Source: a virus. From it: a stretch of 36,016 bases of DNA. Location: the IMG/VR virus record IMGVR_UViG_3300037488_002473, positions 1 through 36,016 of that record; one strand, written 5' to 3'. Both the position numbers and the translations under genes were made by a program. Below, piece after piece: positions 6,390-36,016 of the stretch (the stretch's first letter is position 1; each line of letters begins with the position of its first letter). The notes below the pieces were generated by a model. The model searched no databases, had not been told where the DNA came from, and saw only the letters and a list, made by a program, of their open reading frames with translations.

Positions 6390-7223
6390 TTACCTGCCAC
6401 CCCTGGCCCGGACTGCGGCCTCTGCCGCGTCCCAATCCTCGTCCTTCACGTCATAGGTCAGGATGCACCTGCAATTGATAACCTCTTCCGCAGGCCCGAG
6501 AGGATCACCCGGGAATCGCAAGCGCACCCCACCTACAATGAAGGCCCCGTCCAGGTCGACCGCCTGCCCGTCTGCCTCGGCGTGCGACTCTCGGACCCGC
6601 ATATCCATCCCAGCCGTCCAGACCTTTTGAGTCTCGCCCTCTAGGCCTACTGCCTCGGCCTCAAGTTTCATAGTCTCGGCAGAAGTCTCTTGGACTGCCG
6701 AGTGCGTTTCTGTTCTGGCAATGGTCTTGGCCCGTGATACTGAGACATCATCCATACGCTCACGGATGCCTCGCCCTACAACATTTTCCCCAGGGAGTCC
6801 CCCCTCCAAGGCATCGGCAAACCATCGCTTGATTTTGGCCCTGTCGCTTCCCGTTATAGTCTTAGACTTTTCTAGTGCGTTGCGTTTGATCCAGTCTTGT
6901 ATCATGTCCTCATATTCTGCCTCTGTCGCCTTGCGTTCCATTCCTGGGGAAAAGGACTTCCGCTTCCTCAAGGCGTCCCGCACTCTGCCAGACCCAACCC
7001 TTGCCGCGATCCTCCCCCACTTTTCGAGGAGGTTCCTTAGCGCGTTCTGGTGATGTTTTACTACGCTCTCTAGGCCGGGCCCTTTCGGGTGCGCTTCAAC
7101 ATTGCGCGAGAACGCGGCCCACTCTTTGGCAAGATCCTCCTGCATCCGGGCCGCTATTGCGTCCTGGATCTTGAGTAAGACTAGCCTCTCGGTGTGCCTT
7201 TGTTCCCGCGTTAGGTTTATCAC
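6390..7223 (-). CDS. MuF-like head morphogenesis protein
   Basis: The protein has 277 aa. The N-terminal half is helical and charged. The C-terminal domain has the Mu gpF/SPP1 gp7 signature: R.IART.THSAV..T (about residues 165-178), KVWTAGMDMRVRESHAEADGQ, then the FPGDP.GPAEEVINCRC end. These minor head proteins bind the portal and enter the head in a few copies. The start is GTG at 7223, overlapping the portal stop (GTGA), which supports coupled translation. No toxin or nuclease extension is visible. Confidence 0.9.
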   Translation of the reverse strand: MINLTREQRHTERLVLLKIQDAIAARMQEDLAKEWAAFSRNVEAHPKGPGLESVVKHHQNALRNLLEKWGRIAARVGSGRVRDALRKRKSFSPGMERKATEAEYEDMIQDWIKRNALEKSKTITGSDRAKIKRWFADALEGGLPGENVVGRGIRERMDDVSVSRAKTIARTETHSAVQETSAETMKLEAEAVGLEGETQKVWTAGMDMRVRESHAEADGQAVDLDGAFIVGGVRLRFPGDPLGPAEEVINCRCILTYDVKDEDWDAAEAAVRARGGR

Positions 7224-8722
7224 GCCTTAGGGTCCTCTTCCTCTTCCTCTTCCTCTTCCTCTTCCTCAGCGGGCGGGACTTGAGGGGGAACCACTGCCGG
7301 GGGTTCCTCTTCCGGTTCCTCTTCCTCTGCCGGGCCTTCAAGTTTTGACAGGTCAAAAGTCGGGTCGATCTTGGCCACGACATCCCGGGCAAGTTCAACA
7401 CTGAGGGACCCGGCTTTGAGTTTTTCCAAGACTGATAGGATCATATCCAGTTTATCCTTGGATATTGTCTCGGGCATATCGGGCTCACCCTCTTCCGTCC
7501 CGCCCTCTTCCTGGGAAGAAAGGGCGCCGGGTGCCGGGCCAACGGGAATGAGTGCGGGATTGATAAACAGCATATTTGCGTCCCGAGCATCGACCCGAGG
7601 AAGACCAACCGCCTCGCGTTTTTCGTTGGCCGTCATAAAGTCGGCCCCCGCTATTGTGGCCCAGCGTGCCTGTCTCTTTGCTGCAAGCGCTGGAATATCG
7701 TCCACGATTTTGCGCACCTCCATGCCCTTATAGAGCGGTGCGATATATGCGTTGAAGTCGTCAAGGATGAAGTCCAGCAGGGGCATAGCGAGGTCCTCAT
7801 ACAGTGCCTGCCGTGCCTCTTGGTAGTTGCTGTATGTCGAGTCCCCAGGGATGCCGAGCATCTGAGGCGCAATGTTAAATACAAGCGCAATTTCCCGGGC
7901 CGACATATTGCGCCCATTGATCCAATCCATTTCTAAGGCATTCAATTGCGTTGCCACAAACTTAAGGCCTTGCTCTGCCAACATAGGGCGGCCCGCATTC
8001 CGTGAGCCCTCGTACATGCTGGAGACTTCGCTCTTGAGTTTTTCGTACTGGGCCTCTGTTAGGCGCCCTTCGTATTGCAGGATTCCAGAGGGCCGGGCAG
8101 AGTTTTGCAGAAGGGACTGATTCCAGGCCCCCGCCAAATTATGTTGGTCCACGCAATTGGCCGCCGCCTCTATGGGGGATTGCCCGTACCAGTCATGCAG
8201 GGGGTTCCAATACTTGACATGCATAATAGGGCTTACCTGAGTCACAGGATCCACGTCCCAGGCCTTGGACTGCCCGCCTGCCTCATAGATATATTGGGCG
8301 ACACCAAAGCGCCCCGGCTTTATCTTCATGCGGTCTGTTCTATGGACCCACAATTCTTTGATCTTGCCCCCAGTCACAAGCCCCTCTGTGTAACTGTTGC
8401 CAGTCAACGCCAAGAAAGAGACAAGATCTTGCATCCATGCGCCATAGCCCTGGGAAGGATTGGGACGCCTCAACAGTTCCGAAAGCTGGTTTTCCACCCG
8501 CTCACCTTTGACGAAAACCCCCACGGGAATGGAGGCCACAGTCTGGGCAGTGAGCGAAACACACCTATAAACAATTGCATTGGCTTGGTAGCCTTCCTTC
8601 GCAATCTGCCGGGGGTCCCGGCTTGGCGATACCACCCCGCCCCCGTTCATGAGGTAAATGAGGGGCTGGATTGTCGAGGCCTTCTGTTGAAGTCCGGCCC
8701 AGATACGTTGAAAAAGTCCCAT
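7220..8722 (-). CDS. portal protein, HK97 family
   Basis: The protein has 500 aa. Residues 1-400 match the HK97-type portal layout: V..SRD..QIAKEGYQANAIVYRCVS at about 32-56, S.PVGVFVKGERVE, RRPNPSQGYGAWMQDLVSFLALTGNSY, and later the NARPSGILQYEGRLTE and MSAREIALVFNIAPQMLGIPGDSTYSNYQEARQALYEDL blocks. The C-terminal tail is odd: proline-rich and then a run of 11 Glu encoded by a (TCTTCC)-type repeat. The 12-mer ring is the packaging channel and the nucleus for head assembly. It lies between TerL and MuF, overlapping MuF by 4 bp. Confidence 0.95.
   Translation of the reverse strand: MGLFQRIWAGLQQKASTIQPLIYLMNGGGVVSPSRDPRQIAKEGYQANAIVYRCVSLTAQTVASIPVGVFVKGERVENQLSELLRRPNPSQGYGAWMQDLVSFLALTGNSYTEGLVTGGKIKELWVHRTDRMKIKPGRFGVAQYIYEAGGQSKAWDVDPVTQVSPIMHVKYWNPLHDWYGQSPIEAAANCVDQHNLAGAWNQSLLQNSARPSGILQYEGRLTEAQYEKLKSEVSSMYEGSRNAGRPMLAEQGLKFVATQLNALEMDWINGRNMSAREIALVFNIAPQMLGIPGDSTYSNYQEARQALYEDLAMPLLDFILDDFNAYIAPLYKGMEVRKIVDDIPALAAKRQARWATIAGADFMTANEKREAVGLPRVDARDANMLFINPALIPVGPAPGALSSQEEGGTEEGEPDMPETISKDKLDMILSVLEKLKAGSLSVELARDVVAKIDPTFDLSKLEGPAEEEEPEEEPPAVVPPQVPPAEEEEEEEEEEEDPKA
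7232..7267. repeat. hexanucleotide microsatellite encoding poly-Glu in the portal C-terminus
   Basis: About five to six tandem copies of a CTCTTC unit on the plus strand. On the coding (minus) strand they give GAA/GAG codons, hence the Glu run before DPKA. Tandem hexamers can lengthen or shrink in frame by slippage, so tail length may vary between isolates. A second acidic block lies nearby, at about 7300-7330. Confidence 0.85.
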
Positions 8723-8754: not shown

Positions 8755-10125
8755 TTATAGGGCCCTGAGCCCGGGCTGTTTCTGTTCCTCTAAGTAATTG
8801 TATGCACCGCTAGACCCATCCACTTGGTCGTCATGCGCCCCATCGTCAAAGGCTACAAGCTCGCTGATATACTCGGCATTCCACGGACCGCGCAATAATG
8901 CGACCTTGCCATGTTCACACGCGGCGGACAAGGGGATTGCTCTGATGCCTTTCTCTTTTGTTACCCTGCGAACATCCACGGGAAACCCCGTCAGATATTC
9001 TACTAGAGAATCAATGTCTGATTTTCCTGCCTGCCCCGGGTCCTCTTCCAGGACTTGCATCACGGTCCCGCCGTCTTGGCTTGCCGTGGACTTTATTGCC
9101 TGCCGCATCCGGCCAGGCGTAAGCCGAAAGCGCGCCACGTCCTCCACGATATACTTGTACGGCCCGGATGCACACTCCAAAAACTTGACCCCCGCCGTCC
9201 AATCTGGGTCTGGGTTTTGTGCGTTGGGTTCTGTTGCTGCCCGGTCCCAATATCGTATGGCCTGCACAATCCCCGGGAGTTCATCCACAATGGGGAGCCA
9301 TATCCGCTTGAAGTAGGAGCCCGCCTCCCGTCTGACTTTCCAATTGCCATCCCTAAGCCGGGCCCGCTCAACGTGCCCAAGTGCGTTCAAGTTTGCCCGA
9401 TAGTTCGGATCCTTTCGCATGAGGATCCGGTTGTCCTCAAGTTTCGCCGGGATGAACGTAACGGACTTGCCCGGCATGTCCTCCCCAAAGCGTTCCCGAT
9501 TGGCGGCCTGAGATTCCTGGGCAGAATTATGCCAAAGTATGGCATCACCATCCCGCAGCATCCACCGCAGGACCCCGGCCCTCTCGGGAATGGGGAAGCC
9601 TGTGTCTTGGTCAATCCACCATTCCAGAAACTTAGCGACCCAAGAGTCAGGGTCAGGGTTGCAAGATGCCCGGACGTATGGACGTACGCCAGAGGTTGAA
9701 CGATTGCGCGACAATAGATAGAAAAACTGAGTCTGTGAAAAGTGTGTAAGTTCATCAAAGCATATCAAAGGAATCTGCGCCCCTTGCCAGTCATATATAT
9801 TTTTCTCATATTGCAGGTGGGAAAAAGAAATTGTTGCACCAGAAGGAAACACCCAGGATAGCGACCCAATGCGGGGCTCCCCTCTGAGGGCCGGGAAAAC
9901 CTGGAAGGAAGTATCCCAGATTGACCCCGCTTTTTTAGCGTCTGCCAGAGTCTTGCGAAAAATTGTAGCTGAATATCTGGGATTGTGGACATTGCGTATT
10001 GCTTCCATCAGAAGGGAGAAGGTTTTGCTCCCGCCTGCCGCGCCCCCAAGTATGGCGATATCTGCGCCGCAAGAAAGGAAACTTTCCTGTGGCCCCTTCT
10101 GTGGTTTTATTGGTGCTGGTTTCAT
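8755..10125 (-). CDS. terL: terminase large subunit
   Basis: The protein has 456 aa with both terminase domains. ATPase part: Walker A-like GGAAGGSKT at about residues 27-35 (a common terminase variant), Walker B LICFDEL at about 120, and the coupling motif ASCNPDP (about 153-159). Nuclease part: RYWDRAATE at about 290 with the first acidic residue, and FDDGAHDDQVDG near residue 436 with the last acidic pair. It cuts and pumps DNA into the head. The start overlaps the stop of the small zinc protein (ATGA), with AAGGTG 5 bases upstream. Similarity is closest to GTA gp2/terminase_6-type enzymes, judged by eye. Confidence 0.95.
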   Translation of the reverse strand: MKPAPIKPQKGPQESFLSCGADIAILGGAAGGSKTFSLLMEAIRNVHNPRYSATIFRKTLADAKKAGSIWDTSFQVFPALRGEPRIGSLSWVFPSGATISFSHLQYEKNIYDWQGAQIPLICFDELTHFSQTQFFYLLSRNRSTSGVRPYVRASCNPDPDSWVAKFLEWWIDQDTGFPIPERAGVLRWMLRDGDAILWHNSAQESQAANRERFGEDMPGKSVTFIPAKLEDNRILMRKDPNYRANLNALGHVERARLRDGNWKVRREAGSYFKRIWLPIVDELPGIVQAIRYWDRAATEPNAQNPDPDWTAGVKFLECASGPYKYIVEDVARFRLTPGRMRQAIKSTASQDGGTVMQVLEEDPGQAGKSDIDSLVEYLTGFPVDVRRVTKEKGIRAIPLSAACEHGKVALLRGPWNAEYISELVAFDDGAHDDQVDGSSGAYNYLEEQKQPGLRAL

Positions 10126-10328
10126 CGTTTCACCTTACAGGCGTCCCAATCTCTTGAGGCTTCCCAAAGCGAGGGAACCCACGCCGTTGCAATATGACAA
10201 TGCACACAATACACCCGCCAACGATGCCCTGAACCAAGCTGGGCCTTTCTTTTCTCGGCAAAAGCCTTGTGCCCGCAGATGCAAGCCTTAGGGGTCTCCA
10301 GGATCTTGGAGTCTTGGTATGGGCTCAC
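10122..10328 (-). CDS. small zinc-binding protein, restriction-alleviation (Lar)-like
   Basis: The protein has 68 aa. It carries two Cys/His pairs in the order C-x-C-G-H (about residues 17-20), then W.VYC.HC (about 37-43), then S..EA..DWD. This matches the spacing of Lar-family restriction alleviation proteins (C..C, W.V.C..C, EA...WN), which protect phage DNA from type I restriction. The family call is by eye and tentative; a plain zinc ribbon is possible. It starts with GTG overlapping the TerS stop (GTGA) and overlaps TerL, an unusual place for such a gene. Confidence 0.6.
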   Translation of the reverse strand: MSPYQDSKILETPKACICGHKAFAEKRKAQLGSGHRWRVYCVHCHIATAWVPSLWEASRDWDACKVKR

Positions 10329-11353: not shown

Positions 11354-11401
11354 AGAGACCCCCAATCTTTTTTTTCTCTTTTTTCTCTTCAAGTTATATA
11401 T

Positions 11402-11430
11402 TTGTCATATATTTGTTATACTTTTACTAT
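11402..11430 (+). promoter_or_regulatory. candidate sigma70-type promoter for the rightward block
   Basis: TTGTCA (11402-11407) and TACTAT (11425-11430) are separated by 17 bases within AT-rich DNA upstream of the plus-strand genes. The match to TTGACA/TATAAT is moderate, four to five of six at each box. The transcript would carry a leader of about 750 bases that is poor in G. Confidence 0.35.
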
Positions 11431-11485
11431 TATCTACCATTTACTATAAGTCAAAAATTATCTATTGGAAAGAAAACATAATAAA

Positions 11486-11515
11486 AATATAGGCTTTTCA
11501 TTCGATAAAAATCAA
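11486..11515 (-). promoter_or_regulatory. candidate sigma70-type promoter for the leftward block
   Basis: On the minus strand, TTGATT (11515-11510) is followed after 18 bases by TATATT (11491-11486), a fair match to the sigma70 consensus. It points toward the small membrane gene and the terminase-to-tail block. No operator was identified, and AT-rich DNA yields such matches by chance. Confidence 0.35.
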
Positions 11516-11517
11516 AT

Positions 11518-12060
11518 ATGAGTCAAAACCCCAAAAACCAAAAAAAGTATCACAAAACTCAAAAACCCTATAAAAACACAGGAAAAAAAAACACCCTCTT
11601 TTTCAGACCTACAAAAACCATCAAAGGGGTCTCTCCCACCATACCCACCCCCCTCCCCAAAGGTTTTTTCCTGTTTTCCGCGCTCTTTTTTCCTGTTATT
11701 TTGCAGCAACTCCAGCAAAATACCCCCGAAAACACCCCACCCCCTCAAGGCCTATTTATTTTCCATAAAAACCCCAGAAACCAAAAATCCTCGGGGGGAT
11801 CACGTCAGATTGCCCCTATTTTTTGACCCATATTTTGCCGGGGGTACACCCTCCCCCCGAAAACCCCAAAAAACCACCCACCCCACCCCCAAAACGGGCG
11901 AAAATACCCTCCCCCTTTTTGGCCCCAAAACCTCCCAAAATACGCCTCGAAATCCAACCCAAAAACCAAACCAAAATCCCCGCCCAAAGCCCACCAATCC
12001 AAGCCCCAATCCAAGCGCCAAAATATCGCCAAGCCATCCAACCCGCCAACCCAAAACCCA
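11518..12060. other. strand-asymmetric, G-poor tract
   Basis: Over about 540 bases the plus strand is mostly A and C, with roughly one G in ten by eye and C three to four times more frequent. Motifs such as ACCCC, CCCCGAAAA and CCAAAA recur; near-copies of CCCCGAAAAC occur at about 11303, 11727 and 11852. As RNA from the plus strand it would be nearly unstructured; the opposite strand has many G runs. No gene is called. Confidence 0.8.
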
Positions 12061-12068
12061 CCGAGGCC

Positions 12069-12089
12069 GCGCCTCTTCCCAGGAGGCGC
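12069..12089. promoter_or_regulatory. inverted repeat with 7-bp stem
   Basis: GCGCCTC (12069-12075) pairs with GAGGCGC (12083-12089) across a 7-base loop TTCCCAG. No T run follows on either strand, so it is not a clear terminator. It contains one copy of the abundant TCCCAGGA 8-mer, spanning loop and right arm. Confidence 0.5.
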
Positions 12090-12112
12090 CCGCCTTTCCC
12101 GTTTCGATAAAG

Positions 12113-12126
12113 CCTTATTGATAAGG
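12113..12126. promoter_or_regulatory. short palindrome, operator-like
   Basis: CCTTAT and ATAAGG form a perfect inverted repeat with a TG centre, about 65 bp upstream of the first rightward gene. Two-fold symmetric sites of this size can bind dimeric regulators, but no regulator is identified here. Confidence 0.35.
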
Positions 12127-12191
12127 ATCCGCCCAGCCGGGCTCCCTTGCCTCGCCTTTCCCGCGTCCATACTCCTGGTAGGAGCCATACC

Positions 12192-12572
12192 ATGCCGTCC
12201 ACCATACCAGCACAAACACACCACAAGGCCAGGAGAGGAAGGCCGCAAAAGCCAATCCCCTGCGAAACATTGGCCGCCTACATTGCCGCCGCGTGCCTGA
12301 CTGATGGATCGGACGGCGGGATCTATACGAGGGCGGCCCTCGTTCTCCAGGCCGTCAAAGCGCCGCGCCCATATAGCCATCGGCATCTAGTCTTTGCCCT
12401 CCTGGCGATTCATCGGGCATGGAGTCCAGAAAGCAAAGCGACATCCCTTTGGAGTTCTCGGGGGTGCGTTTTTTGCGGTGGAAGGGGTAGCAGTGTGGGA
12501 GACTCTGGCAGTTCCCATATCCAAAACCACCTCACGGAACTGCGCGGGCACATAAACGTCCGCGAATTGTAA
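12192..12572 (+). CDS. unknown protein with one copy of the HR-PES-SLW-CxxC module
   Basis: The protein has 126 aa from the ATG at 12192, with AGGAG 7 bases upstream. The first 25 residues are basic (HHKARRGRPQKP, AT-hook-like). Residues 45-95 hold a module seen twice in the next gene: TRAALVLQAV, then a Tyr, HLVFALLAIHRAWSPESKATSLW, and a closing C-V-F-C pair. The last 30 residues (GSSVGDSGSSHIQNHL) are Ser/Gly rich and lack the helix that follows the module in the neighbour. I do not recognise the family. The CxxC pair may bind zinc, and the basic start suggests nucleic-acid binding. As first gene of the rightward block it is probably expressed early. Confidence 0.7.
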   Translation: MPSTIPAQTHHKARRGRPQKPIPCETLAAYIAAACLTDGSDGGIYTRAALVLQAVKAPRPYSHRHLVFALLAIHRAWSPESKATSLWSSRGCVFCGGRGSSVGDSGSSHIQNHLTELRGHINVREL

Positions 12573-12616
12573 CGCAAACACCAAACCAAAAACCCAATCA
12601 AACAGGAGCCCACACC

Positions 12617-13528
12617 ATGGCCCAGAATATCCACGCCTTCATCACTGCCGGGAAGCGTACCACCGGAACCCTGCACGAAAGGGCGGCCCAGATCTTGGAC
12701 TTGCTCCAAGTCTCGGACCCGCTTTGCCCGTACAAACACAATGCCCAGCAAGTGGAATGGGCCCTTGTGGCGGCCTATCGTTCCATGCACCCCGAGTGCC
12801 AAGCCGTCTCCCTTTGGGTTCCACAGCATAAACACACCAAGGTCCGGCGTGTCTGTATTTTGTGCGCCCGAAAATCAGACAATATACCGACAAAGGCAGG
12901 CGCCAAGTCCGAGCAAGAGGACAAGGCAGAGCATGTCCAGGCCTTCCGGGAGTTCTACGACACAAGGAAGCCCACCATCAACCAAGATAAGACCATAAAG
13001 GAAGTGGAAGAGGCCCGAGGCCACGGCAAGGCAAGGCCGTTGGGGTTTCCACCAATCAAAAACAAGCCCGAGGACTATTGCCCGGCATCAATTGCCGAGT
13101 TTATTAAGGCCGTGAAACTGTTCCCCGTGGATCCACCAAAGGAAAAGCAATATCGCCACAAACTCACCCTGGAGGAAAGAGCATATAAAGCCCTCCGGTA
13201 TTTATTCCCGCAGCAAGACCACCGATCCTTCACCCCCGCACAAATAGAGAGGGCCCTAGTTGCAGTCCATCGGGCAGACCACCCAGAAAGCGGCGCCGTC
13301 TCTCTTTGGATCTACGAAAGAAAAACAGGGACAAAGAAAATACGGCACTGCATCCTTTGCGATCGTTCATCCCAGGAATACGCCACCCCAACCTTTTACG
13401 CCAAGTATCCCGAACATCCCACCAGCACCCAGGCCGAGAGGGAGGACAAGGCCAAACACCTGCTTGACTTTGCCGACTTTGTGACCTGGAAATGTTTGCC
13501 GCAAGCAATAAAGCCGCACCAAAAATAA
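12617..13528 (+). CDS. unknown protein with two HR-PES-SLW-CxxC modules
   Basis: The protein has 303 aa; CAGGAG lies 8 bases before the ATG. Two copies of an unrecognised module are plain: residues 20-86 and 186-251. Each runs ERA..hL, a variable loop, then ALVA.(Y/H)R..HPE...VSLW, about 10 residues with many Lys and Arg, and CILC (C80/C83 and C245/C248). Each is followed by a helix with EDKA.H...F (101-110 and 276-285). The linker between them (115-180) is charged and Pro-rich. The preceding gene has a third, shorter copy, so the pair arose by duplication. A zinc-binding or DNA-binding role is inferred from the CxxC and basic residues only. Confidence 0.8.
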   Translation: MAQNIHAFITAGKRTTGTLHERAAQILDLLQVSDPLCPYKHNAQQVEWALVAAYRSMHPECQAVSLWVPQHKHTKVRRVCILCARKSDNIPTKAGAKSEQEDKAEHVQAFREFYDTRKPTINQDKTIKEVEEARGHGKARPLGFPPIKNKPEDYCPASIAEFIKAVKLFPVDPPKEKQYRHKLTLEERAYKALRYLFPQQDHRSFTPAQIERALVAVHRADHPESGAVSLWIYERKTGTKKIRHCILCDRSSQEYATPTFYAKYPEHPTSTQAEREDKAKHLLDFADFVTWKCLPQAIKPHQK

Positions 13529-24149: not shown

Positions 24150-26327
24150 ATGAGAGACAAAACCGTCAAACTTTATACCGCCTTGGGTTTCGACATTGCC
24201 GAAAACAACGGCGGGGAGTTGCGGGCAACCTGCTTGGTATGCGGGAAGCCAAAGTTTTACCTTTCGGACGATGGCGCCTTTGACTGCAAAGGATGCAGCA
24301 TCCGGGGGAATGATCGCACGATTGCAAAAATACTGCATGACAAGATCTATGCCAAAGCACTAGGGCCAAAACAAAAGGCCGCCCTCTCAGAGTGGCGCGG
24401 CATGCCAGAGGACTGTTTCGATTCCAAGTCGCTGGGGTGGGATCCAATCTTCAAGGAATGGACCGCCCTTTCTCCGTTGTCCCCAGGATTGAAGGCCTGG
24501 GGCTTGAAGCGTACAAAGGAAATCAAAGGCAAGCGCCGATTCCTCGCCCTTCCTGGCGGGGAAATGGGGCTTTTCGGGGCAGATCTGATCCAGCCGGGCG
24601 GCAAGGAAACGGTCTATATTTGTGAAGGCGAATGGGACTCCCTTTCCTTTTCTTGGCTGCTTAAGGCAAACAATGCCCGGGCCTATGTTGTAGGCGTCCC
24701 CGGTAGTACAACCTTCAAGGATGAATGGGTCGAATGGATGCGGGGGCGTAAGATCTGCGCCCTCTTGGACAATGACAGGGGCGGCTTGGCAGGAAATGGG
24801 GTTTTGAGGAAGCGCCTTGGGAATGTTGCCGCGTCCATTCAATATCTCCATTGGCCCGCCGACTTAGACGGCAAGTGGGACGTTGACAAACTTATACAAG
24901 AGGAAATCCCAGAACGCGACCCCGCCGAAATCCTGGAAGGAATAAAGAGAAATCTCAAGGCAACGATCCAGGGAAGCACCGAGGACAAAGGAAAGAAAAC
25001 CACCCAGGAGCAAGCCCAAGAGGCAACGGGCCCCGAAGCAATCGACCCCAGCACCGTCCCTCAAATATCCTACAAGGAATTGCACGCCTGTTTTGGCAAG
25101 TGGTATCACCTGCCTCAGGCCTTGCGGGACGGCTTGGACATAGAGATTGCCTGTCTCTTTGCCGCCAAAATGAACCTGAGGCCCGCCCCTTGGGTCTATC
25201 TGGTGGGCCCGTCCTCGACCGGAAAATCCATGCTAGTGGAAAGCCTGGACGCCTTGGAAGAGGCCGTTTTTCTTTCCGAAGTCCGAGGGACAACCTTGGT
25301 TTCCGGGTTCTCCGTCCAGGGAGGCGGGGATCCTTCAATGCTGGCCCGGTTCAACGATTTTGGGAGTGGTGCGTCAAAGTCTGTTCTACTTGTGGGCGAC
25401 ATGTCAGTCACCATGTCTCAGGGTTCGGAGGAAGTCCAACGGGTCCAAAGTCTTTTGCGTGATATATCAAATGGGCGCATGTATGCCGCCTATGGTAACG
25501 GAGTGATTAGAGACTATAAAAAGTTGCACGTGGCAATCCTGGCAGGTGTGACCATGGAAGTTTGGCGCATCGACACCCCGGAAATGGGGGAACGCTTTGT
25601 TAAGTGTATCGTTTGCCGATCCTCAGGCCGGGAAAAGGACGATCGTCTAGCGTCAGAAAAAGCCGTCAGGAATACCCCATTCAGAAAAGAAATGGAGAGG
25701 GAAACAAAAGAGGCAGTCATCGGCGCAATGAAGCGCCCGATTCCCGAGGTTATACCCTACCCCGCTCCTGAAAATATGGGGCCTTTTATTGATCTCGGTA
25801 TATTTTGCGAAAGGATAAGGGGTTCGTCAAAAGTCGATAAGTTCACAAACGTACAAGAGACAAACACAAACCACGCAGGCGGGACTCGCTTTGCCACTAC
25901 TCTTGCAGTCATAGCAACAGGGGCCGCCGTTCACCTGGAATGCTCGCCCACTGATGAAAGGGTTCTCCGATTGGTTCGCAAGATCACCCGGGACACCCCA
26001 AACCATTACCGAATGATTTTGGTCAAGGCTTTGTATGACATGTACCAAAAAAAGCCTTTCATGGTTCGAGAGGTTATCCCTTCAATTTATCGGGACATGA
26101 CCACGGAGACCGCAGAAATGGAGACTGCCGCCCTTTTCCGCATGGGGGTGATTCACAAGACCAAAACACTTTGCCCGGACGGGGTGGAGCGCATCGCCTG
26201 GGAACTAGACAAAGGCATCCATGCACTCATCAAAAAACTCAGGCTTTTCGAGGACCTAGACCAATCTGACCCCTTTTCCATATCCTTCATCCCCAAACAG
26301 ATGACCATCACAAGGAAGAAACAATGA
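24150..26327 (+). CDS. primase-helicase (zinc finger, TOPRIM, AAA+/SF3-like ATPase)
   Basis: The protein has 725 aa. N-terminal CHC2-like zinc finger: C28-x2-C31 and C46-x2-C49 (CLVCGK, then FDCKGC). TOPRIM core: VYICEGEWDSLS with Glu159, and CALLDNDRGG with Asp207 and Asp209. A Gln/Lys-rich linker spans 270-300. The C-terminal ATPase has Walker A LVGPSSTGKS (351-360), then SVLLVGDMS as a Walker B-like strand, and HVAILAGVTMEVW as sensor 1. This combination primes and unwinds DNA at the fork. The last 120 residues look like a winged-helix domain. The ATG at 24150 follows the polymerase stop within 2 bp. The upstream frame extension is not used. Confidence 0.9.
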   Translation: MRDKTVKLYTALGFDIAENNGGELRATCLVCGKPKFYLSDDGAFDCKGCSIRGNDRTIAKILHDKIYAKALGPKQKAALSEWRGMPEDCFDSKSLGWDPIFKEWTALSPLSPGLKAWGLKRTKEIKGKRRFLALPGGEMGLFGADLIQPGGKETVYICEGEWDSLSFSWLLKANNARAYVVGVPGSTTFKDEWVEWMRGRKICALLDNDRGGLAGNGVLRKRLGNVAASIQYLHWPADLDGKWDVDKLIQEEIPERDPAEILEGIKRNLKATIQGSTEDKGKKTTQEQAQEATGPEAIDPSTVPQISYKELHACFGKWYHLPQALRDGLDIEIACLFAAKMNLRPAPWVYLVGPSSTGKSMLVESLDALEEAVFLSEVRGTTLVSGFSVQGGGDPSMLARFNDFGSGASKSVLLVGDMSVTMSQGSEEVQRVQSLLRDISNGRMYAAYGNGVIRDYKKLHVAILAGVTMEVWRIDTPEMGERFVKCIVCRSSGREKDDRLASEKAVRNTPFRKEMERETKEAVIGAMKRPIPEVIPYPAPENMGPFIDLGIFCERIRGSSKVDKFTNVQETNTNHAGGTRFATTLAVIATGAAVHLECSPTDERVLRLVRKITRDTPNHYRMILVKALYDMYQKKPFMVREVIPSIYRDMTTETAEMETAALFRMGVIHKTKTLCPDGVERIAWELDKGIHALIKKLRLFEDLDQSDPFSISFIPKQMTITRKKQ

Positions 26328-27211
26328 GCGCCAAAGTAGAGGCCCGGCTTTCCGCCCTCCGACAATACATAGAGGCGAGGCAGGCCGCCTATATCCTCCA
26401 CCGTCAAGGGATCGTGGAATCACCGGACTATATTTTGAGGGCCTACCGATTCCCCAACGTCATACGAAACCAAGACAAGACAACCCAATGGATACAAGAA
26501 ACCTGGGCCCGCCCGTACTATAAACACCCCCGGCTTTGGTTCGCTTTGATTCTGGCCCGAGTGTTCAACTTACCCCGTACCCTTTCCCTGCTGGGGTTTC
26601 CTGGGCAGGGGGACCCAAAGGAATGGCGCGATCATGCCTTGCAGGTTTTGGCGTTCATCCGAGAAAGCGGGACGCCTGTCTTTTCTTCCGCCTACCCCAT
26701 CACCCCACACGGGCACAAAGGCGACAAGGCCCGCATCATCGTCCATGATTCCTTGTACCCGGCCCTAGTTTATTTTTCCCAGGAAAGGACCTGGGAAACC
26801 CCTAGAGCCCTGGAAGAGATATGGGGCATTCTCATGCTGCACCTAGGCCTCGGCCCTGTGGTCTGTTCTGAAATTGCGGCAGATTTTTCATGCACAAAAT
26901 ACCACCGCCAAGGCACGGACTTGTGCCTGTGGGGCTTTGTTTCCCCGCCCGCAATAGACGCCCTGTGCCATATTTATGGGCGCCAAAAAATCGACCAAGC
27001 CGAGGCCCGGGAAATGGTCCGGGAGGTTCGCAAGGTCTGGCCCGAAAAAATCCCGTGCCCTTTCTTTGTGGATCTTGAGCACACCCTTGTCGGGTTTTCC
27101 CGTTATCTCTCGGCAAAAAACGGGAGCCCCATATCCAAGAAAATACCGAAAATCCAAAGCCCTGGGGCTGGCCCTGACGGGCTTCCCTGGGCGAAAGGTG
27201 CAAAGCCATGA
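26324..27211 (+). CDS. thymine-hypermodification-type helical protein (HMUDK_hel / aGPT-Pplase-like)
   Basis: The protein has 295 aa. Residues 17-125 match, by memory of the family, the helical domain of phage 5-hydroxymethyl-dU DNA kinases and the alpha-glutamyl/putrescinyl-thymine pyrophosphorylase-like proteins: RAYRFPNVIRNQDKTTQWIQ, HPRLWFALILARVFNLPRTL, and VFSSAYPI. Residues 172-190 (HLGLGPVVCSEIAADFS) resemble a helix-hairpin-helix, and a late D-LEHTL-GFSRYL segment is conserved too. The family is linked with modified thymine in phage DNA. No dUMP hydroxymethylase, kinase or transferase partner is visible in this genome, so its substrate is unknown. It overlaps the primase-helicase gene by 4 bp, tying it to replication. 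Confidence 0.8.
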   Translation: MSAKVEARLSALRQYIEARQAAYILHRQGIVESPDYILRAYRFPNVIRNQDKTTQWIQETWARPYYKHPRLWFALILARVFNLPRTLSLLGFPGQGDPKEWRDHALQVLAFIRESGTPVFSSAYPITPHGHKGDKARIIVHDSLYPALVYFSQERTWETPRALEEIWGILMLHLGLGPVVCSEIAADFSCTKYHRQGTDLCLWGFVSPPAIDALCHIYGRQKIDQAEAREMVREVRKVWPEKIPCPFFVDLEHTLVGFSRYLSAKNGSPISKKIPKIQSPGAGPDGLPWAKGAKP

Positions 27212-31805: not shown

Positions 31806-32593
31806 TGCGTCAAACCAATGAGCGGCATCTTGGCCCGCATCAAATGGGGTTTTTGGTATTCCGGTCCAGGGATGGAAGAGGCCGCAGCAAAGAGGCAGTC
31901 AAAGGGGTAATTTCTTGGAGACCAACGGAAAAAGAAAGGATACTTGAGGGCATGGGTGCAAAATGGGCGCCAGTGGTCGGCAACGAAAGCCGGGGTCAGA
32001 TATTCAAGATCTACGTTGTATTCCTTGATCAAACGAAGCAGGGACCGAGAAATCAGAGAACCATTGACGCTCATGCCGTTGGAAAGTTTCCAAGACTGTT
32101 GAAGGCTTGGCGGTGCGACCCCTACTTGCTGCCCAGTGGGCGGCACGAGTAAGGGGCCGACGCATAACTGCCGGGCGTACAAAAACTTTCCAGAGGGTAC
32201 GACAAAACGAATTAAAATCAATTTCCCCCCAGGAATCTCAGTAATGGGGAAAGAGAGAAGTCCAAGGGGTTGTACTACAGGATCAATTGTAGCAGTGATA
32301 GGCGCGAACACCCCAGGGCTGCCCGTCTCAGAGTATAGTCTGATTGAAAAGCCCGTCTCTGTGATCGGTAGGGTTTTGACAAACCACCCAAAGCCTCCGA
32401 TGCTTTGCGTATAAGGATAAGAAAATACGACATCAGTCGTTCCCGGCTGTACCTGGAAAAGAGTCCAATCTTTCCAGTCGAAGGCATTTGCCAATGGAAA
32501 ACGTGGATTTTCTGCGGCGCCGTCATATACTGGGGTCACGCCAGTATATCGGGCTAGATTGGAATAAAGAATCTCAGGAACTACCATAGTCAT
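31802..32593 (-). CDS. distal tail-like minor protein
   Basis: The protein has 263 aa, beta-rich. The N-terminal part (NPRFPLANAFDWKDWTLFQV, then a jelly-roll-like stretch with IGGFGWFVKTL) resembles a discoidin-type strand sandwich. The C-terminal part has RPFCTHALKYPFFFRWSPRN, a pattern seen in proteins that sit between the tape measure and the hub of related phages. By position it should be the distal tail ring or an adaptor to the hub. It overlaps the tape-measure gene and the hub gene by 4 bp each. Confidence 0.65.
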   Translation of the reverse strand: MTMVVPEILYSNLARYTGVTPVYDGAAENPRFPLANAFDWKDWTLFQVQPGTTDVVFSYPYTQSIGGFGWFVKTLPITETGFSIRLYSETGSPGVFAPITATIDPVVQPLGLLSFPITEIPGGKLILIRFVVPSGKFLYARQLCVGPLLVPPTGQQVGVAPPSLQQSWKLSNGMSVNGSLISRSLLRLIKEYNVDLEYLTPAFVADHWRPFCTHALKYPFFFRWSPRNYPFDCLFAAASSIPGPEYQKPHLMRAKMPLIGLTQ

Positions 32594-34488
32594 AGGACAT
32601 TTACCCTTGTAAGTTTTTTGCCGTCCTTACTTTCTTCCCGGATCTGATCCATGAGCCCACGGACTTGGGAGGCCCCGAAACGCTCACCGATTAGTGACAC
32701 GTTGACCGTCGAAGTACCGCCAGATCCTCCCGGGCCGCCGCTATTGCTCGACCCCGTGGGAGCGTCTGCGCTTCCCCCAGGAATGCCGCCAGCGCTTGCC
32801 CCGCTACCGTAAGACTGTGAGGCGAGTTTGGCCGCCTGGGCCATCCCTGCGCCAACGGCAAGGGCCGCAAAGGAGGAGGCAAAAACCAAAGGGGTGCCTA
32901 GTTTGGAATCAATTGCCGCGCCTGCACTCCATGCCCTCATGGTGGCAATAGTTGTTTCCACCCCGATGGCTGCAATACCGAAAACCTTGGCCGCCTCAAA
33001 GCCTTTCTTGCCGAAAGCCTCAGAAATTGCCTGGGCATCCCGCAGTGCCTGAGAGGTAGCGCCTAGATCTTCCGTGAGTGTGGACCGTTTTAGTTTTGAG
33101 GTTTTCTTTTCGTCTAAGATCTCTTGCGCCCTTCTGCGCCCCTGTTGCTCCCGTATTGTGCCGTTCATGTAATCATCAATGGCGATGATCTCTTCAGCGT
33201 AGGTATTTGCGTCCTCAATTGACTTCGTGTAAAAGTCCATCTCCAGTTCCATGCGCGCCTTGAAGTATTCCTGTTCGCCCTCTGTTTGGTTTATTTTCAT
33301 CGTATCGGCAGGGGTCTCCCCGGAGGTCATCTTACCTATTTTGTCAAAATAATTTGCGTTTGCCTGCGCCTTTACCTCGTCAAGATACGCCTCTTCCCGC
33401 TTCATCTTGAGGACGGCGGGCATCATTTCCATGAAGGCCTTGTTTGCCTTGAGTTCCTCAAGCCTCATAGAATCGGGATCGGCATTTTTCAGCCTTTGTT
33501 TTTTCTCAAGTTCTACTGCCTCGTCCTTTTGAAGTTTCAAAATCTCTTCGGTGATCTCTCTTTGTGCCCGGATCTCTGGGAGTTCTGACACTGCCAAAGC
33601 CAATGATTTTTGCCGTTCATCTGAAATCTTTTTCAGGGACGCTAGTTTTTCATCTAGTTTTTTTGTCGCGTCAACATCCAGGCTTATCTCTTCCGCCCTG
33701 GCAGGAATCCCAGCCTTAAACTTATCAAAGCCTTTCATGGTTCTGTCGTACATTGCGCCGGACAAGGCATCGCCTAGTTTTGCTCCCGATTTTTCCATAG
33801 ACCCCACTGCTTGATTTGTGATCTCTTGCGCCGAGTTGACTAGCGTATCACCAAAAGACTTTATCGAATCCCCGGCCTCTTTTGACACTACCCCTGCAAG
33901 ATACCCAAAACCCTTGGCGGCAGTCCCGACAAGCCCGATAATCCCAGCCAAAGCAAACCGGGCTTCCTGGAAGAAAACATTGAAAGTCTCAGTCACTACC
34001 ACGGCAACAGTCTTGAGGACGGCCCACCCGTTGGCGAAGTTTTCGACCATTTCCGAGTTGTCTTTGAGGCCTTTGGTTGTTTGCCGCAGGCCATCAGATA
34101 GATCCTTTGCAATAAAACCGATAACAGGGGCGAGGGCAGAAACGGCAGTTTCTTTGAAACGCTCAAAGCCAAGGGTTAGATTTTTGACCTCGTAATTGGC
34201 GACCATCGCCCCCTCTTTGAGGGCGCCGCTAACCAAGGAGTTTTGGCCTGCCGCCTTCTCCAGATCCTGGAAGCCTTCGCGTAAGGCGCGGACACCGAGC
34301 CGAAAGGCCTGCATGCCGACAAAAGCAAGCGAAACATTCCGCCCCATGTCCGTGAAAGACTTGGACGCTTTATCGCCCGCATCCTTGGCGGCAGTCCCTA
34401 CCTGCTTGGTGTTTGCGACTACCTGAGCAAGGGCCGCCTTCAGATCGGCAATATCCGCCACAATCTTCAGCGTTAAATCTTCGCTCAT
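32590..34488 (-). CDS. tail tape-measure protein
   Basis: The protein has 632 aa. It starts with a typical LTLKIVADIADLKAALAQVV segment, then long charged and Ala-rich helices. Hydrophobic parts lie at about 150-185 (LAGIIGLVGTAAKGFGYLAG) and 515-560 (AIGVETTIATMRAWSAG, then FASSFAALAVGAGMAQAAK). The Gly/Ser linker and end VNVSLIGERFGASQVRGLMD are typical for GTA/lambda-type tape measures. The length predicts a tail of roughly 90-100 nm by the usual rule of about 0.15 nm per residue. The ATG overlaps the TGA of the frameshifted chaperone product. Confidence 0.92.
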   Translation of the reverse strand: MSEDLTLKIVADIADLKAALAQVVANTKQVGTAAKDAGDKASKSFTDMGRNVSLAFVGMQAFRLGVRALREGFQDLEKAAGQNSLVSGALKEGAMVANYEVKNLTLGFERFKETAVSALAPVIGFIAKDLSDGLRQTTKGLKDNSEMVENFANGWAVLKTVAVVVTETFNVFFQEARFALAGIIGLVGTAAKGFGYLAGVVSKEAGDSIKSFGDTLVNSAQEITNQAVGSMEKSGAKLGDALSGAMYDRTMKGFDKFKAGIPARAEEISLDVDATKKLDEKLASLKKISDERQKSLALAVSELPEIRAQREITEEILKLQKDEAVELEKKQRLKNADPDSMRLEELKANKAFMEMMPAVLKMKREEAYLDEVKAQANANYFDKIGKMTSGETPADTMKINQTEGEQEYFKARMELEMDFYTKSIEDANTYAEEIIAIDDYMNGTIREQQGRRRAQEILDEKKTSKLKRSTLTEDLGATSQALRDAQAISEAFGKKGFEAAKVFGIAAIGVETTIATMRAWSAGAAIDSKLGTPLVFASSFAALAVGAGMAQAAKLASQSYGSGASAGGIPGGSADAPTGSSNSGGPGGSGGTSTVNVSLIGERFGASQVRGLMDQIREESKDGKKLTRVNVL

Positions 34489-35687: not shown

Positions 35688-36016
35688 CTAGGCCCCTGGC
35701 GGCCCTTGGAACCACCCTTCAGCATTCATTTGCTCAAAAGTCTTGACCGATGGGGCAAGACTCTGGGGCAATATATCCAAAATGGTCTTGAAGGTCCCAA
35801 GGGCGGCTGTGATTCTGTTCTGCGTTTCTTGTTTTTCCCCAGGAAGGCAGACCCCCGCAGCAATCAAAGCATCCAAGATTGCGTCTAATCCGTGAGGGTC
35901 TGCCTCGGGATGAATCAGCAAAGGATCGTCAGAGAAATCCCAAGCGTATTGATCGGCAGCGGGATGCTTTATCACACTGCCAACATCCGATGAAATGTCG
36001 GCTGGATCAATCAAAT
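35688..36016 (-). CDS. unknown tail-module protein, C-terminal part (gene spans the circle junction)
   Basis: This is the C-terminal 109 or so residues of the 136-aa protein that starts at position 189 near the left end. The visible part is acidic, with a predicted helical stretch around LDAILDALIAAGV, and it ends QGPPGA. No catalytic or binding motif was recognised. The stop is followed by about 115 bp before the next gene (the short tail tube, starting at 35571). That gap contains a small hairpin (GCGGG/CCCGC) and an A/G-rich ribosome site. Its function is unknown; its place between two tail-tube genes suggests a tail accessory protein. Confidence 0.7.
   Translation of the reverse strand, partial: LIDPADISSDVGSVIKHPAADQYAWDFSDDPLLIHPEADPHGLDAILDALIAAGVCLPGEKQETQNRITAALGTFKTILDILPQSLAPSVKTFEQMNAEGWFQGPPGA
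35910..36016. repeat. terminal direct repeat, right copy (circular-contig overlap)
   Basis: Exact copy of the first 107 bases of the window. One copy should be removed when the genome is closed into a circle. The minus-strand gene ending at 35688 enters from this copy and continues, after joining, into the left end of the window. Confidence 0.95.

Follow-up and report, generated by a model that had tools for sequence, protein, structure and literature searches.

The window analysed here is a 36,016-bp record from an uncultured tailed phage. Nucleotides 1-107 recur exactly at 35910-36016 as a 107-bp direct terminal repeat, and the record is therefore probably a complete, circularly closed genome. 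The structural genes run leftward, with the terminase at 8755-10125 and the portal at 7220-8722, and this set continues across the record ends to the tape measure gene (32590-34488). The replication genes (ligase, helicase, exonuclease, Sak4-like, DNA polymerase and primase) run rightward. Two genes, p1 and p2, were thought to stand at the head of the early block. Gene order agrees with this: no assigned gene of the rightward replication block precedes them, and they are the first ones assigned on the plus strand past an intergenic region of about 800 bp, with the replication genes next. The following features lie at this locus:

11393-12191, no strand assigned: intergenic stretch separating p1 from the leftward late genes, a likely early leader and regulatory region, with no assigned gene, low G and repeats
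12192-12572, plus strand: p1, 126 aa, one module copy; open reading frame with a ribosome-binding site (RBS) and homology to p2
12231-12245, plus strand: RRGRP, AT-hook-like motif, p1 residues 14-18; a sequence reading only
12617-13528, plus strand: p2, 303 aa, two module copies; open reading frame with an RBS and phage-like codon usage

Both genes are preceded by AGGAG (12180-12184 for p1 and 12604-12608 for p2), 7-8 nt before the ATG. The codon usage score was -0.05 bits/codon for p1, unlike the other genes of the phage, and +0.27 for p2, which resembles them; p1 is thus supported by its homology, frame and RBS and not by codon bias. The encoded proteins are basic, with a pI of 9.95 and a net charge of +8 for p1, and 9.3 and +14 for p2. 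The N-terminus of p1 had been called AT-hook-like, and RRGRP is literally there, but as a single short motif; read with its neighbors (KARRGRPQK, residues 12-20), it has the RGRP core and basic flanks of an AT-hook.

The upstream region (~800 bp, 11401-12190) holds no assigned gene. The G content of its plus strand is 9.8% at 11401-12000, the lowest of the record, against a mean of 25.6%, and the C runs at 11635-11658 and 11907-11936 would form G4 motifs on the minus strand. At 11393-11425 an 11-nt AT-rich unit, GTTATATATTT, stands in three tandem copies and may be an origin or promoter element. The proposal of a divergent promoter here was not borne out, as the 4 sigma-70-like sites found are at chance level (2.2 +/- 1.7 expected). 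Elsewhere in the record, the minus-strand gene adjoining the terminase (10122-10328) encodes a 68-aa protein with CxC and CxxC (ACICGH...VYCVHC...WDACK) that resembles a Lar-type zinc ribbon, and its PHROG matches were weak only (E 0.0096). The protein encoded at 26324-27211 on the plus strand matches Pfam PF18723, the helical domain of 5-hmdU DNA kinase (E 2e-14), without a recognised kinase part, and the annotation of MW202897.1, a relative by structural genes, includes a pyrimidine hydroxymethylase and a glucosyl transferase. Base modification of the phage DNA is therefore possible.

Judged by alignment and profile, p1 and p2 carry three diverged copies of one module:

12258-12554, plus strand: module copy 1, p1 residues 23-121 (alignment, leave-one-out profile, AlphaFold2 model)
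12617-12964, plus strand: module copy 2, p2 residues 1-116 (alignment, leave-one-out profile)
13079-13486, plus strand: module copy 3, p2 residues 155-290 (alignment, leave-one-out profile, AlphaFold2 model)

The sequence-only reading had assigned one copy to the first protein and two to the second, and shuffled alignments and leave-one-out profiles both confirmed this. Shuffle Z-scores of the pairwise alignments were 12.2 (copies 1 and 2), 9.5 (1 and 3) and 19.8 (2 and 3). When HMMs were built without one copy, the omitted copy ranked first among 13,896 ORFs in all three cases, with E-values of 1.8e-14 for copy 2, 4.7e-13 for copy 3 and 1.6e-3 for copy 1; in the copy 1 search the best non-self ORF among the 13,896 had an E-value of 0.82. 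Nucleotide identity between copies at codon positions 1/2/3 was.45/.57/.40,.49/.51/.33 and.53/.66/.33. The stronger conservation of positions 1 and 2 than of position 3 indicates selection on the protein sequence, and third positions near saturation indicate that the copies are old. Copy 1 is the outlier, being shorter, lacking the basic stretch and lying in a gene with untypical codon usage. The three copies are best explained as one small basic domain that was duplicated twice, within p2 in one case and between the two genes in the other.

The module is longer than the ~65 residues at first assigned to it, at about 100-136 aa, since it also takes in a helix on the N-terminal side ([IL]xx[FY]IxA) and one on the C-terminal side, in which a His is invariant. 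Several details of its signature hold in part of the set. HPES is present in copy 3, while copy 1 has SPES and copy 2 HPEC. CxxC follows in every copy, but the basic stretch said to precede it is absent from copy 1, in which the interval from SLW to CxxC is ~9 residues shorter. EDKA.H is confined to copies 2 and 3; its His nonetheless aligns in all three. Helix 1 has an Ile and an Ala that are the same in 3/3 copies, helix 2 has RA and L, and helix 3 has ALxA...R; likewise invariant are PE..A.SLW, R.C..C and the His of the last helix.

The AlphaFold2 input consisted of the three module sequences only, and the models of copies 1 and 3 are thus not independent. Copy 3 was modeled fairly confidently (mean pLDDT 81.6, pTM 0.77), with helices at 5-14, 31-42 and 53-67, strands at 77-83 and 86-91 and a helix at 116-138. 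The copy 1 model was weaker (mean pLDDT 72.8, pTM 0.65), with helices at 27-37, 44-54 and 63-77, a short hairpin and a helix at 106-124. Both models predict the same order of elements, namely three helices, a beta-hairpin, CxxC and a long helix with the His, and so, with one alignment behind the two, give no sign that the copies differ in fold.

Each copy carries candidate metal ligands, read from the sequence unless another source is named:

12465-12476, plus strand: CVFC, copy 1, C92 and C95
12516-12533, plus strand: HIQNHL in the copy 1 helix, H109 and H113, candidate ligands (sequence, AlphaFold2 model)
12776-12799, plus strand: YRSMHPEC, copy 2, H58 and C61, possible first metal knuckle (sequence; inference)
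12854-12865, plus strand: CILC, copy 2, C80 and C83
12932-12946, plus strand: HVQAF, copy 2, H106
13268-13291, plus strand: HRADHPES, copy 3, H222
13349-13360, plus strand: CILC, copy 3, C245 and C248
13457-13471, plus strand: HLLDF, copy 3, H281

The candidates common to all copies are CxxC and the last-helix His. Adding H58/C61 of copy 2, H222 of copy 3 and the second helix His of copy 1 gives at least four per copy, and the module is probably metal-binding. One metal ion, probably zinc, would hold each copy through CxxC and the helix His. The HPE His would be the fourth ligand in copies 2 and 3; in copy 1, where this His is lost, the second helix His (HxxxH) would take its place.

The module could also be a zinc domain of a known type (zinc ribbon, treble clef/HNH or C2H2 finger) that has diverged so far that sequence methods miss it, which we consider improbable. 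The hairpin ending in CxxC is like that of Lar-type restriction alleviation proteins: in copy 3 it superposes on one viral model of a phage 'restriction alleviation protein' over 21 columns at 1.2 A (prob 0.51, E 1.9), and in copy 2 the HPEC before and CILC after the hairpin have ribbon-like spacing. However, the module lacks a second CxxC, its hairpin sits between three preceding helices and a long last helix, the whole-domain TM is just 0.14, and of the two Cys knuckles that flank the hairpin in a zinc ribbon or Lar protein each copy has one CxxC, with HPEC in copy 2 only. Copy 1 has the C2H2-like pattern CxxC-x13-HxxxH (C-x2-C-x13-H-x3-H), and copy 3 overlaps weakly with Kaiso fingers (Z about 2.5). 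Copies 2 and 3, in contrast, have Phe in place of the second His (HxxxF, with HxxxH in copy 1 only) and CxxC-to-His spacings of 22 and 32, so that C2H2 spacing is not found in every copy, and the hairpin of the module precedes CxxC rather than surrounding it. The Pfam scan found no zinc-finger profile. For HNH/treble-clef domains, diverged members of which can be missed, there was no Pfam, PHROG or NCBIfam match and no HNH motif was seen. The absence of any match in Pfam, NCBIfam or PDB, ligand sets that vary by copy and the lack of a common second CxxC or HNH motif all weigh against a known zinc domain.

Fold searches with the copy 1 and copy 3 models gave no convincing match. For copy 3 the best Z was 3.1 and the best Foldseek E-value 3.7, far too weak for fold assignment; copy 1 drew a different and equally unconvincing set. 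One entry, 8d2z, reached Z 6.0 to copy 1, but the best match expected by chance usually scores 7 to 8, and the entry was absent for copy 3. The weak matches of copy 3 include DNA-binding domains (DEK, FoxO, PerR and Kaiso zinc fingers; Z 2.0-2.9). Winged helices (DEK, FoxO, PerR) share with the module an order of helices then hairpin, but these Z-scores are under any useful level and such domains are absent from the copy 1 matches. Furthermore, phrog_6319 (function unknown) matched most of copy 2 weakly and colinearly (E 0.053, or 2e-4 for the record alone) but did not match copies 1 and 3.

That the module belongs to no known family, as had been supposed, agrees with every search made, whether of family libraries, sequence collections or folds. 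Pfam, PHROGs, NCBIfam, PADLOC and PDB gave no significant family match; ImuA (NCBIfam E 0.027), PH_31 and DUF4158 were below cut-off, each with part of one copy. No relative was found by tblastn with p2 against phages and plasmids or p1 against phages, and none was confirmed when IMG/VR was scanned with p2 and with five alignment designs directed at different conserved parts. A GTDB contig scan with poorly chosen patterns also found none. Since contig scans require an exact short peptide, they are not exhaustive and may miss distant relatives. The module profile had no valid match in 34 terminase-related virus records, where a hit in L084 was out of frame with an internal stop, or in 385 + 369 + 389 + 398 (~1,540) bacterial genomes, where the single hit fell within another gene, in a wrong frame that contains 8 stops. 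The terminase-based relatives have only structural genes in common with the record; the closest, L019, shares 13 genes and is a fragment of 12 kb that does not include the early region. MW202897.1 (Manatee Spring) gave no module profile match. Since p1 and p2 have no counterpart in the related phage records searched, phages of this kind do not generally depend on what these genes do. The literature held nothing relevant to the module. In the libraries searched the module is a real but isolated family, an orphan of an ordinary kind among small Cys/His early phage proteins.

Phage early genes encode a wealth of small proteins whose fold is unknown and which redirect the transcription of the host or the phage. 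The best-supported reading, to which we give somewhat less than an even chance, is that the duplicated domain is basic, is stabilised by metal, binds nucleic acid and has a regulatory role early in infection. The direct evidence reaches as far as a conserved domain. Nucleic acid is suggested as the target by the charge, the RRGRP arm and the gene position, and a regulatory role would follow from the same three features, of which the arm is a single AT-hook-like motif. Basic charge is weak evidence, because the DNA enzymes of this phage and another early ORF are also basic. The domain would bind DNA or RNA, in p1 as one copy beside an AT-hook-like arm and in p2 as a pair, and both proteins would act early in infection to regulate phage gene expression, possibly at the unusual intergenic region just upstream.

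The main rival reading, which we regard as somewhat unlikely, is that p1 and p2 act early against the host or its defences and bind a host protein, with a metal site that is only structural and a charge that is incidental. Early-block position and a lack of relatives are typical of fast-evolving host-takeover genes, and p1 and p2 combine a place at the head of the early block with the absence of detected relatives; the fold searches, moreover, identified no known DNA-binding fold. PADLOC gave no match, though this has no bearing on anti-defence proteins. Against a host target, the AT-hook-like arm, the high pI and protein-level conservation despite saturated third positions suggest a long-kept common biochemical role. 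An enzyme, such as a small nuclease, in place of a binding domain is highly improbable: the polar residues R, E, R and H, which are invariant, could be catalytic, but no nuclease family matched (Pfam, PHROG, NCBIfam), no catalytic motif was recognisable, and the module is duplicated within one chain, an arrangement commoner in binding domains.

Returning to the regulatory reading, its fullest form would have a new metal-binding family found an early regulator pair, with the fourth ligand moved between paralogues and the G-depleted 800 bp upstream recognised by the proteins; this we consider a long shot. Three copies kept by selection make a better structure target than a singleton, and the paralogues provide a built-in comparison. 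If the metal-site reading is false, the module is one more orphan phage family; if it is true, the module would show a shift of the ligand set after duplication.
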